Source: Mucilaginibacter aurantiaciroseus (lineage in GTDB: Bacteria; Bacteroidota; Bacteroidia; Sphingobacteriales; Sphingobacteriaceae). Taken from it: a stretch of DNA of 64,000 nt. A program made the translations under genes and the position numbers. Positions 12,175-41,432 of the stretch are shown here, one piece after another (the first letter of the stretch is position 1; every line of letters begins with the position of its first letter). Below the pieces are notes generated by a model that saw nothing but the letters and a program-made list of their open reading frames with translations, was not told the origin of the DNA and did no database searches. Location of the stretch: positions 558,001-622,000 of the forward strand of contig NZ_JAMXOF010000002.1 of NCBI RefSeq assembly GCF_024055595.1, written 5' to 3'.

Positions 12175-12270
12175 TTTTTGGGGTTGTTTTAGTGTTTGTT
12201 TAGTTATTAGACGCAACCTTGGTTGGGTTAGTTGCATGAAATTGAAAATAAAACATAAAACATAAAAAAT

Positions 12271-12354
12271 TTGTCATCCTGAACGACAGTGAAGGATCCA
12301 ACCGGCTACATACAAGTCGGCGAATAGATGCTTCACTGTCGTTTAGCATTACAA
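12271..12354. repeat. 84-bp imperfect palindrome (TTGTnATnCTnAACGACAGTGAAG family)
   Basis: Arms of 28 bases, TTGTCATCCTGAACGACAGT... and the reverse complement of ...ACTGTCGTTTAGCATTACAA, differ at only a few positions around a ~28-base centre. It fills most of the gap between two minus-strand genes. It is related in form to the TCATTGCGAG elements elsewhere in the window, but its arms differ. Confidence 0.8.
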
Positions 12355-12363
12355 AAGGAAGCA

Positions 12364-14013: not shown

Positions 14014-14039
14014 TTTTTATATATTTTTCAATTTTTAAT

Positions 14040-14126
14040 ATGTCATTGCGAGCGATAGCGTGGCAATCTCATAGGATAAGAGGATATGCTGAGATTGCCG
14101 CGTCACTACGTTCCTCGCAATGACAT
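14040..14126. repeat. 87-bp interspersed palindrome, TCATTGCGAG family, copy 1
   Basis: Outer arms ATGTCATTGCGAG / CTCGCAATGACAT are perfect. Inner arms (GGCAATCTCA / TGAGATTGCC) extend the hairpin, around a centre containing GGATATGCT. A copy of identical length lies at 31361-31447. Confidence 0.88.
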
Positions 14127-14147
14127 GGTGTAGAAACCTCTAATCTC

Positions 14148-25292: not shown

Positions 25293-25299
25293 ACATTCC

Positions 25300-25392
25300 G
25301 TCACTGCGAGGTACGAAGCAATCTCTTGTGTACAATTATACACTTTGCATAATTGATTTGCTCAAACAGATTGCTTCGTGCCTCGTAATAAC
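25300..25392. repeat. 93-bp interspersed palindrome, TCATTGCGAG family, AAGCAATCTC variant, copy 2
   Basis: Arms GTCACTGCGAGGTACGAAGC... and the complement of ...GCTTCGTGCCTCGTAATAAC, with AATCTC/GATT continuing inward, around an AT-rich centre. It lies between the convergent crtI and ilvA genes. Chance ORFs over such elements read 'LRGTKQSL' and are not genes. Confidence 0.84.
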
Positions 25393-25426
25393 GCATGGGG
25401 GTTACAGGCAATATTCTTTAATTAAT

Positions 25427-28740: not shown

Positions 28741-28820
28741 CACCTTTAAATCTCCCCCGGTAAGGGATACTTTTTATTTTGTTTTTTTATTAAGCCCTCC
28801 CTACCGGGGAGGGCTTGGGT
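28741..28820. repeat. 80-bp GC-rich palindrome, CTCCCCGG-type family, copy 2
   Basis: Arms CACC...TCTCCCCCGGTAAGGGA and TACCGGGGAGGGCTTGGGTG, the second with its own hairpin AAGCCCTCC / GGAGGGCTT, around a T-rich centre. It fills most of the leuB-methyltransferase gap inside the operon. Confidence 0.75.
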
Positions 28821-31347: not shown

Positions 31348-31360
31348 TGTATTTTCTTTT

Positions 31361-31447
31361 ATGTTATTGCGAGCGATAGCGTGGCAATCTCAGAGGACAA
31401 TCGGATATGCTGCTATTGCCGTGTCACTACATTCCTAGCAATAACAT
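31361..31447. repeat. 87-bp interspersed palindrome, TCATTGCGAG family, copy 2 of the GCGATAGCGTGG type
   Basis: Same length and layout as 14040-14126. Outer arms ATGTTATTGC / GCAATAACAT keep pairing although both sides differ from copy 1 (C to T on the left, G to A on the right). It lies between leuC and leuD inside the operon. Confidence 0.87.
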
Positions 31448-31452
31448 GGTAA

Positions 31453-32868
31453 TTAAACCAATTCCTCTTCTTTCAAAAACTCCCTAATATCTGTAACCAC
31501 TCCCGTAATTGCACTTGCCGCCGCGGTAAGTGGGCTTGCCAGGAAAGTACGTGAGTTTGGCCCTTGCCTGCCCTCGAAGTTCCTGTTTGAAGTAGATACA
31601 CAGTATTTACCTGCCGGGATCTTATCCTCATTCATACCTAAACAGGCGCTGCAACCCGGTTCGCGTAGCGGGAAACCTGCCGCGTCGAAGATCTTATCCA
31701 GACCTTCGCGGATGGCTTGTTCCTGTACTTGTTTTGAACCGGGTACTACCCAAACGATAACGTTATCTGCCTTGTGTTTGCCTTTCACAAACTGTGCAAC
31801 TTCGCGTAAGTCTTCAATACGGCTGTTGGTACAGCTGCCAATAAATACGTAATCGATAGGTTTGCCTAATAGTTGCTGATCGTCATGCAGGCCCATATAG
31901 TTAAGGGCTTTTTTGTATGAGCCTTGTTCCTTTTGCTCAAATGAAGCGGTTTCGGGAACGTGCTGTGTAACGCCAATGCCCATACCGGGGTTTGTTCCAT
32001 AGGTGATCATCGGTTCTATATCTTCGGCTTTAAAGCTTAGTACGCTGTCAAAATCTGCATCTTCATCAGAGTACAGGGTTTGCCAGTAAGCTACTGCCTT
32101 GTCCCACTCTTCGCCTTTGGGGGCAAATTCGCGGCCTTTAACGTAATTAATAGTAGTTTCGTCGGGCGCTATCAATCCGCAACGCGCACCCATTTCGATG
32201 CTCATGTTACAGATGGTCATGCGGCCTTCCATGCTTAAACTGCGGATGGTGTCGCCTGCGTATTCAACAGCGTAACCTGTACCGCCGGCGGCAGATATCT
32301 GCGCGATGATGTACAGGATGATATCTTTTGCGCCAACACCTTTTTGCAATTTGCCGTTCACTTCAATTTTCATCCTTTTTGGGCGAGATTGCAGTAAACA
32401 TTGGGTAGCCATTACTTGTTCTACCTGCGAAGTGCCTATGCCAAACGCTATGGCACCAAAGGCGCCGTGTGTTGAAGTATGACTGTCGCCGCAAACATAG
32501 GTGCTACCCGGACGGGTGATGCCCAGCTCGGGGCCTATAACGTGAACGATACCCTGGAATGGATGCCCTAAACCGTAAAGCTCGATGCCGAACTCCGCGC
32601 AGTTTTTGGTGAGCATATCAACCTGGTATCGGGAAAGTTCTTCTTTAATGGGTAAGTGCTGGTCCCAGGTAGGGACGTTGTGATCGGCCGTGGCAACGGT
32701 TTGTTGTGGCCTGAAAACCGGTAACCCTCTTAAGCGCAAACCATCAAAAGCCTGCGGGCTGGTTACCTCGTGAATGAAGTGCGTATCGATGTATAAAATA
32801 TCGGGAAAGCCCTCGTTGCTACTGACGACGTGTGCATCCCAAATCTTGTCGAATAATGTTTGTCCCAT
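31453..32868 (-). CDS. leuC: 3-isopropylmalate dehydratase large subunit
   Basis: Aconitase-family catalytic subunit, 471 residues, holding the [4Fe-4S] cluster that isomerises 2- to 3-isopropylmalate. Cluster cysteines are in FIGSCTNSR and [10 protein letters not shown] (two). [31 protein letters not shown] is a family signature (given here by its start [15 protein letters not shown]). [15 protein letters not shown] is the usual N-terminus. Confidence 0.96.
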
Positions 32869-32870
32869 TT

Positions 32871-33002
32871 TAGTATCAAGTAGTTAGTGTCAAGTATCAA
32901 GTAAAACTCTGCTACTTAAAACTCATATTTATTATTAAGTAGCAAGTACTTAATATCTGCCATCAATAAATCTTGATATTTGATACTAAATACTTGCTAC
33001 TA
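32871..33002. repeat. 132-bp imperfect palindrome between ilvC and leuC
   Basis: 31-base arms begin TAGTATCAAGTAGTTAG and, on the other strand, TAGTAGCAAGTATTTAG, with about five mismatches, around a ~70-base AT-rich centre that has weaker internal pairing (AAGTAGCAAGTACTT). It fills the ilvC-leuC gap. Confidence 0.82.
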
Positions 33003-33009
33003 AAGAAAA

Positions 33010-34179: not shown

Positions 34180-34830
34180 TTACATCGTGAACACTTTTTG
34201 CCCCTTGTTCAGATATTCGTTCTCGATAACGTCTTCGCCCGGTTCAAGCCTTTCAAATTCGCGGAGCTTGCTGTTAAAGCCTTCGCTGTTTTTGATTATG
34301 GCTACGCGTGCGCTGCGTACAAATTCAATTAATCCGTAAGGCTGAAGGATGCTGATCAGGTTATCGGTTTCTTCGCGATGGCCGGTTGTTTCAAATACCG
34401 TATAGTCTTTACGCAATACCACCACTCGGGCGCCGTTCTCGCGCAGTAAACGCTCAACGCTTACCTTTTCGGCAATAACATCGGTAGATACTTTGTATAG
34501 AGCCAGTTCCTGCCAGATTACATCGGCATTGGTATGGAAATATACTTTAAGCACTTCCACCTGTTTTTCAATCTGGCGGGTAAGCTTGCGCACCACTTCC
34601 TCAGATTCGGTTATCACGATGTTAAAACGGTGGATGCTCTCGATCTCGGAAGGAGAGGTGTTTAAACTATCGATATTGATCTTACGACGCGTGAATATGA
34701 TGGCAATACGGTTTAGTAAACCTATCTGGTTTTCCGTGTAAACCGTTATGTTAAATTCCTGCTTTTCAGGCCCCTCTAGATCTCCCCCGGCAGGGGAGAC
34801 TTTTGTAGCGCCATTTGTTTTGTTTTCCAT
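34180..34830 (-). CDS. ilvN: Acetolactate synthase small (regulatory) subunit
   Basis: Binds valine and activates/regulates the catalytic subunit. 216 residues. N-terminal ACT domain EFNITVYTENQIGLLNRIA...RRKINIDSLN, then a second ACT-like half. Residues 2-24 are unusual: residues 10-21 (KVSPAGGDLEGP) are encoded by one arm of a palindromic repeat, and the ATG lies in that repeat's centre. No other start is available between the repeat and the ACT domain. The native protein probably began near EKQEFNITVY. Confidence 0.94.
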   Translation of the reverse strand: MENKTNGATKVSPAGGDLEGPEKQEFNITVYTENQIGLLNRIAIIFTRRKINIDSLNTSPSEIESIHRFNIVITESEEVVRKLTRQIEKQVEVLKVYFHTNADVIWQELALYKVSTDVIAEKVSVERLLRENGARVVVLRKDYTVFETTGHREETDNLISILQPYGLIEFVRSARVAIIKNSEGFNSKLREFERLEPGEDVIENEYLNKGQKVFTM

Positions 34831-34875
34831 TTTTTGTTTTTTTTACTCTTCACCTCCGGAGAGGTTGGGAGGGGC
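34770..34875. repeat. 106-bp GC-rich palindrome, CTCCCCGG-type family, overlapping the ilvN start
   Basis: Perfect outer arms GCCCCTC (34770-34776) / GAGGGGC (34869-34875). Each side has an inner hairpin core, CTCCCCCGGCAGGGGAG and ACCTCCGGAGGT. The T-rich centre contains the ilvN ATG (34830-34828). The left arm is translated in frame as part of IlvN; the right arm ends within a few bases of the ilvB stop. Confidence 0.85.
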
Positions 34876-34881
34876 TGATTT

Positions 34882-39561: not shown

Positions 39562-39816
39562 CTATTTAATAATAATACCCTCCGCTAATACAGTAACCTT
39601 ATTGTTTAAGGCTTCTACCACACCACCCTGGATAAAAAATACTTCTTCTTTAGTACCTGCGGCACCGCGGATGGTTAATTTGCCATCGTTTAAAGTAGAA
39701 ATAATAGGGGCGTGGTTATTCAAGATCTCTAAAAACCCTAATGTACCGGGTAAGGTAACCGAGGTAGCCTCGCCTTCGTAGATCTTTTTATCAGGAGTAA
39801 GAATTTCTAATGTCAT
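39562..39816 (-). CDS. atpC: F1 ATP synthase epsilon subunit, beta-sandwich domain only
   Basis: 84 residues: MTLEILTPDKKIYEGEATSVTLPGTLGFLEILNNHAPIIS is the N-terminal beta-sandwich of epsilon (given by its first motif MTLEILTPDKKIYEG). The usual ~45-residue C-terminal helical hairpin, which can block rotation, is absent; the protein stops after ALNNKVTVLAEGIIIK. Short epsilon is usual in Bacteroidota. It is encoded after atpD, with a 95-base gap taken up by a palindromic element. Confidence 0.93.
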   Translation of the reverse strand: MTLEILTPDKKIYEGEATSVTLPGTLGFLEILNNHAPIISTLNDGKLTIRGAAGTKEEVFFIQGGVVEALNNKVTVLAEGIIIK

Positions 39817-39817
39817 G

Positions 39818-39911
39818 AGCCCCTCTCTAACTCTCCCCGGAAGGGAGAAGATTTTAATTTAATTATTATTATGCCTTTTCTTCCTCCCCTGCGGGGACGT
39901 CTGGTGGGGCT
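39818..39911. repeat. 94-bp GC-rich palindrome, CTCCCCGG-type family, filling the atpD-atpC gap
   Basis: Outer arms AGCCCC / GGGGCT and inner hairpins CTCTCCCCGGAAGGGAG and TCCCCTGCGGGGA. It starts 2 bases from the atpC ATG and ends exactly at the atpD stop, so it makes up the whole intergenic region. Confidence 0.83.

Positions 39912-41432
<1,521 letters not shown>

Follow-up and report, generated by a model that had tools for sequence, protein, structure and literature searches.

Why is the gap between atpD and atpC in Mucilaginibacter aurantiaciroseus occupied almost completely by a palindrome, and what might such an element do between the genes of two subunits that enter the ATP synthase in different numbers (a1 b2 c ~10, delta1 alpha3 gamma1 beta3 epsilon1)? 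In the window, i. e. the whole stretch of 64,000 nucleotides that was analysed, both genes lie on the minus strand. The atpD gene for F1 subunit beta (501 aa; 39912..41417; NCBIfam TIGR01039, 784.7 bits, cut-off 462.85) ends with the TAA stop codon at 39914-39912, and atpC for F1 subunit epsilon (39564..39816; NCBIfam TIGR01216, 77.3 bits, cut-off 67.25) begins with the ATG at 39816. The gap measures 95 nt, 94 nt of which form an inverted repeat (39818..39911, minus strand) with the outer arms AGCCCC (39911-39906) and GGGGCT (39823-39818). Its architecture is that of two C/G hairpins placed face to face: the upstream half (39883..39911, minus strand) consists of AGCCCCACCAGACG followed by the hairpin TCCCC-GCA-GGGGA (39897-39885), the downstream half (39818..39851, minus strand) of a hairpin core (39832-39848) followed by GTTAGAGAGGGGCT, and an A/T-rich spacer (39852..39882, minus strand) separates the two. 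On the mRNA strand, the predicted fold of 39818-39911 reaches -38.2 kcal/mol, shuffles averaging -24.6 kcal/mol (z -4.35; 0/200 shuffles as good), and on the opposite strand z is -2.97 with 3/200 shuffles as good. The gapped inverted-repeat score of the gap also exceeded those of 100/100 dinucleotide shuffles. The initial annotation had described a palindrome that fills the whole gap, which is borne out by the element abutting the atpD stop codon and by its mRNA fold beating all 200 shuffles; the distance to the atpC start is one base instead of the two given there. Judged from the sequence, we propose that the element acts in the manner of intercistronic hairpins that affect message stability or translation.

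The same family had also been placed in the leu operon and at ilvN, and the hairpin core indeed recurs near leuB and at ilvB-ilvN. Two C/G hairpin cores of the window-element type (28743-28774 and from 28797 onwards) lie at the joint of leuB and the next methyltransferase-like gene (28743..28814), and C/G half elements with cores at 34773-34804 and 34845-34876 at the ilvB-ilvN joint (34773..34881). One of the two hairpin halves at the latter joint is located inside the called ilvN reading frame (34773-34830). As the ilvN family match starts at residue 28, the true ilvN start may be further downstream, and the called start codon may be mis-set, with the hairpin copy lying within the frame. Palindromes are present at only part of the nearby ilv/leu joints; among them, a different type from the same genome, a word-array palindrome of AAGTATC/AAGTAGC words (32869..33009, minus strand), fills the ilvC-leuC gap. 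Within 464 kb of this genome, one regular expression found 11 window-type hairpin cores, 9 of them intergenic, and a genome-wide search with the whole window element gave one second, weak match. Palindromic gaps of any type make up 33/122 of the co-directional, 3/21 of the divergent and 14/18 of the convergent gaps in these 464 kb; for 21 sequences of the genus, the counts are 65/140 for co-directional gaps of 45-220 nt (21 = atpD-atpC), 4/23 for divergent and 17/22 for convergent ones.

Is the atpD-atpC gap (D-C; other ATP synthase joints are named likewise) filled in relatives as well? AtpC was detected in 54/60 genomes and in 116/121 of the family sample; genes in the compared loci were called with a simple codon-score caller, which may misplace start codons and err on small genes, and the loci of each search are the best 30 by score and no random draw. 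In Mucilaginibacter, all 40 D-C gaps are 77-145 nt long and 39 of them passed the inverted-repeat test, the 40th, that of L035, being weaker (6/100 shuffles); the gaps scored across all sampled loci exclude L047, for want of a gap, and L084, with an overlap of 1. A second Mucilaginibacter set of 70 loci, assembled without L399 and L408, for which there was no gap, and compared pairwise by ungapped identity without a tree, contains 67 gaps that pass and three failures that still measure 78-122 nt. An empty D-C gap was found neither in the 40 genomes nor in the 70 loci of the genus. Across the whole family (n = 76), 64 gaps are palindromic, 11 are short (0-30 nt) without a palindrome and one (L068) contains Ns; the short, non-palindromic gaps thus amount to 11/36 of those scorable outside the genus. 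Other families of the class have palindromic D-C gaps in L041, L044, L048, L051 and L052, some gaps of less than 20 nt, and longer gaps that yet fail the test in L036, L043, L049 and L053. The comparison with related genomes that the initial annotation had recommended therefore uncovered empty sites (gaps of at most 30 nt), all of them outside the genus. An identical gap sequence shared by distant genera was not observed; the gap sequences are largely unrelated.

This lack of relationship extends into the genus itself, where the D-C palindromes are built from words such as GAGATTT, CAAGAATC, AAGTATC, TGTGCAGA or GTTGTAG, or belong to the C-rich window type. As the C-rich type accounts for only 3/40 of the genus gaps, a single inserting repeat family at D-C was rejected, and the earlier notion of one family that inserts into operon joints does not hold as worded, because the C-rich element is one among many unrelated types. 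On a tree of atpD and atpC from which the gap was excluded, 39 genus rows (L035 was omitted, since a contig end cuts its atpD) require no fewer than 23 family switches and neither a loss nor any other presence change, and the 76 rows of the whole family at least 37 switches and at least 9 presence changes; the families are 6-mer clusters with an uncalibrated cut of 0.20, and shuffled gaps reach up to 0.68, so that the tally of small switches may be too high or too low. Comparisons of close pairs, which at 95-98% atpD identity often have unrelated palindromes, are independent of this cut. In L010, L011 and L012, the last 700 nt of atpD are 97% identical and atpC is 97.5-100% identical, and the palindromes are composed of GAGAT (140 nt), TGCAAAT (83 nt) and CAAGAATC (83 nt), respectively. 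Even L010 and L011, with 97% identity in atpD and 100% in atpC, carry unrelated gap palindromes. The last nine atpD codons of these three loci diverge more than the remainder of the gene, which hints at short conversion tracts. Fifteen Mucilaginibacter pairs reach an atpD identity of 95% or more; their gaps share less than 25% of the 6-mers in nine cases and more than half in six. Gradual drift of a single ancestral palindrome is unlikely, since near-identical genomes bear unrelated ones. A search for a donor of the L011 palindrome in its own genome found none, the best other match being 76% over 69 nt.

A plausible reason for keeping a hairpin at D-C would be the subunit ratio, and the remaining joints of the operon were compared in this respect. 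Subunits of the atp and ribosomal loci were named from one family match each, plus gene order and length; gene calls were missing for L150, L154 and L200 in the genus set and for L302, L308 and L312 in the set of other genera. Among the listed loci of the genus, the two joints at which the subunit number rises are free of palindromes (B-E, 34-60 nt, 0/27; H-A, 19-43 nt, 0/28). At the joints with a drop, E-F contains a conserved hairpin whose fold beats all 100 shuffles in 23/28 of the listed loci, and palindromes by a loose test are present in 20/28 (F-H) and 28/29 (A-G), along with the 39/40 at D-C. For the listed loci of 14-16 other genera, the values are 0/27 (B-E), 21/27 (E-F), 6/27 (F-H), 0/27 (H-A) and 17/28 (A-G). 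Hence, hairpins occur at every step-down joint of the ATP synthase operon (E-F, F-H, A-G, D-C), with lower occupancy outside the genus, and at neither of the step-up joints B-E and H-A, which have short A-rich leaders instead. Taken over genomes, a Fisher test yields 7e-32, but the genomes are related, and the sample size that counts is that of the joints, which are few. Since 11/36 of the D-C gaps outside the genus are short and F-H passes in only 6/27 there, the hairpin is not required; as far as these genomes tell, the D-C hairpin is dispensable for the ATP synthase, being missing from several genera.

The E-F hairpin has a conserved GRTTG loop on a variable stem, often followed by a U run (L141-L170 and L291-L320, e. 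g. L156), and looks like an attenuator-like RNA motif. By a simple rule, the GRTTG-loop hairpin was recognized in 39/55 loci from all genera, with 34 different 5' stems; in 22 loci, TTTT lies at the stem or directly behind it. Such terminator-like hairpins, together with the strong GC stems of the window element, would fit partial intrinsic termination between the two genes atpD and atpC, one of the two routes to a tuned ratio named in the initial annotation. Yet a single base separates the D-C stem from the atpC start, no U run lies 3' of the hairpin, and the word-array palindromes of this joint usually end in A-rich leaders; partial termination at D-C is hence very improbable. For the window element itself, in which the stem is followed by a C and then by the ATG without a U run, identity with an intrinsic terminator was rejected. 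Internal terminators reported to set stoichiometry within operons (PMC9045158, PMC10450193) are alike in fixing an expression ratio inside an operon and differ in being terminators; the D-C hairpin lacks a U run.

Ribosomal operons show how far the association with stoichiometric drops reaches. In the best 30 loci, the rplA-rplJ gap of 2-4 nt (0/30) and the rising joint rplJ-rplL (0/30) are not palindromic, and at the dropping joint rplL-rpoB the fold beats all 100 shuffles in 30/30, with an inverted repeat in 18/30. The listed rplL-rpoB gaps (L201-L230) contain a conserved terminator-like hairpin, AGACTCCGACC...GGTCGGGGTCT. Palindromes are also found at the drop from rpsD to rpoA (16/28 of the listed loci). 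Against a step-down rule, they occur in 18/29 of the listed loci at rpoA-rplQ, where the number rises, and in 25/30 of the best 30 loci at rpsN-rpsH, a 1:1 joint; the remaining spc joints are mostly below 25 nt and gave no palindrome match. A general law by which hairpins mark stoichiometric drops only is thus rejected by rpsN-rpsH and rpoA-rplQ, and from these two joints the palindromes are read as marking joints with a separately tuned downstream gene, of which a stoichiometric drop is one case. The tuning of beta to epsilon suggested at the outset stands in part: it is supported by hairpins at the step-down and none at the step-up joints of the ATP synthase and by a D-C hairpin that is kept despite swaps of its sequence, and it is weakened by the palindromes at two ribosomal joints without a drop. 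Conceivably, the palindromes are general boundary markers, i. e. insulators or processing sites between independently tuned operon segments, be it a drop or a gene with its own leader, with no specific tie to stoichiometry. This would explain rpsN-rpsH and rpoA-rplQ, where conserved leader-like sequence comes after the palindrome, and it overlaps with the favoured explanation at atpD-atpC. The leader-like stretches right upstream of rplQ (L231-L260) and rpsH (L261-L290), possibly autoregulatory leaders, were judged by eye, however, and the loci tried had no Rfam match at curated score, which leaves the boundary-marker reading unlikely, if well worth considering. With Rfam 15, ten loci including L001 gave no match at curated score, and the E-F and leader loci tried gave three sub-threshold matches, far under the gathering scores.

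We favour a positioned intercistronic hairpin at D-C whose structure, and not its sequence, is kept. A large stem-loop takes up the space between the atpD stop and the last base or bases ahead of the atpC start, and over time it has been exchanged for unrelated palindromes, mostly arrays of 7-nt words. In the mRNA, this stem may lower atpC relative to atpD and thereby help to set three beta to one epsilon, either because the upstream message is protected after cleavage or because initiation at the adjacent atpC start is hindered. Median distances from the palindrome to stop and start codon are 3/9 nt at D-C, 3/9 at F-H and 4/8 at A-G, and a spacing of about 9 nt would permit direct hindrance. 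Such a post-transcriptional role is favoured over termination. That the D-C hairpin is kept and lowers atpC output relative to atpD is a claim for which we see the balance as even. In E. coli and Rhodobacter, intra-operon structures that steer differential mRNA decay are established, as in malEFG, pufBALMX and tatABC (PMC5927463). According to the parts of this source that were consulted, those structures resemble the D-C hairpins in lying within an operon, in accompanying the need for an excess of one gene product and in being conserved as structures in related species; in contrast, they are conserved and mostly located in coding regions, whereas the D-C ones fill a gap and are swapped wholesale in sequence. 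A literature search in an open-access library found no description of these D-C elements. If the favoured explanation is true, this would be a case of regulatory turnover with function residing in position and fold instead of sequence, and scans for sequence conservation would overlook such function. An unrelated hairpin swapped in at D-C should then have no effect, and an unstructured spacer should shift the epsilon:beta ratio. Moreover, step-downs of expression within operons of Bacteroidota could be guessed from genomes alone.

Most D-C palindromes are arrays of degenerate 7-nt words, to which the C-rich double hairpin of the window is a minority alternative. For 5' arms of 24 nt or more, the self-match of D-C palindromes is 0.52 at offset 7 and 0.57 at offset 14 in the genus and 0.68 at both offsets in the other genera, that of F-H palindromes 0.71 and 0.70, and that of A-G palindromes 0.48 at both, as compared with 0.29-0.32 in shuffles throughout; at most remaining offsets it is at or under shuffle level. 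Other co-directional gaps sampled from the genus show this periodicity more faintly (0.39 at offset 7), and it is nearly gone in the sample of the own genome (0.32). The first arm contains more G than C in 62/65 (D-C), 17/17 (F-H) and 27/28 (A-G) palindromes; its orientation was dropped as a signal of transcription, since a palindrome is identical on both strands, and is retained as a property of the type. More tentatively, the Mucilaginibacter family may possess a stock of exchangeable parts, degenerate palindromes of 7-nt words with the G-rich arm first, which set an expression ratio from between stop and start codons, with selection that preserves the presence of a hairpin at every joint, takes no account of its sequence and lets it be swapped faster than the flanking genes change; we lean somewhat against this broader proposal. 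The consulted parts of PMC4679880 describe TAACTGA heptamer repeats of Beggiatoaceae, Cyanobacteria and some Bacteroidetes, which are likewise intergenic, have a 7-nt unit and often lie just before a start codon; they differ as exact direct repeats of one heptamer from the many degenerate heptamers in inverted repeats at D-C.

Alternatively, the palindromes could be selfish or neutral elements that are tolerated at joints with loose leaders and not at tight or A-rich ones, with turnover by ordinary insertion, deletion and recombination. Palindromes are common at many joints, CGTC-type REPs occur at joints likewise, the D-C gap is empty in several genera, and the short A-rich leaders of the step-up joints could be damaged by an insert. 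Mismatches in the arms are G-U versus A-C in 72 v 78 (D-C), 13 v 23 (F-H) and 39 v 39 (A-G) cases; with no G-U excess, selection at the RNA level on individual base pairs is not visible, as would be expected if selection acted on entire elements or not at all. Tolerance, however, predicts common empty sites within the genus, of which neither the 40 nor the 70 loci provided one, and replacements almost always yield another palindrome. Furthermore, no near-identical donor was found for one recent replacement, that in L011, and other repeats flank both Y1-transposase genes of the own genome. A selfish or neutral origin is therefore, in our view, less likely than not.

The window element is not a RAYT-driven REP; this identity was rejected, as the element is untagged and the flanks of the Y1 transposases hold other repeats. 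No GTAG or CGTC tag was found at the foot of its stem, which begins with AGCCCC; one CGTC overlaps the inner stem and is missing from the D-C elements of the same type in L026 and L029. Next to the two Y1_Tnp matches in the genome, there are no copies of the element. REP/BIME and GTAG-/CGTC-tagged REPs, as covered by the consulted parts of PMC3733652 and PMC6006769, share with the D-C elements that they are short extragenic palindromes, and differ in that the latter are untagged at the stem foot, have no tie to a Y1 transposase and commonly are 7-nt word arrays.

Further palindromes at gene joints of the window lie at 25299-25393, 14032-14138, 31353-31459 and 12270-12355. CGTC-type REP-like repeats (CGTCACTGCGAGG) are among the repeats at such joints, with CGTC-like copies at 25299-25393, as are two copies, 83% identical, of a 107-nt repeat of the TGTCATTGCGAGG type, and palindromes of the TTTGTCATCCTGAACG type represent another kind. 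Of the two Y1-transposase matches, the second (L004:1501-1821) has an internal TAA stop and a palindrome alongside, and a tandem array of 117-nt units with GGCTAAAGCCA palindromes (L003:1850-2500) adjoins a Y1-transposase gene.
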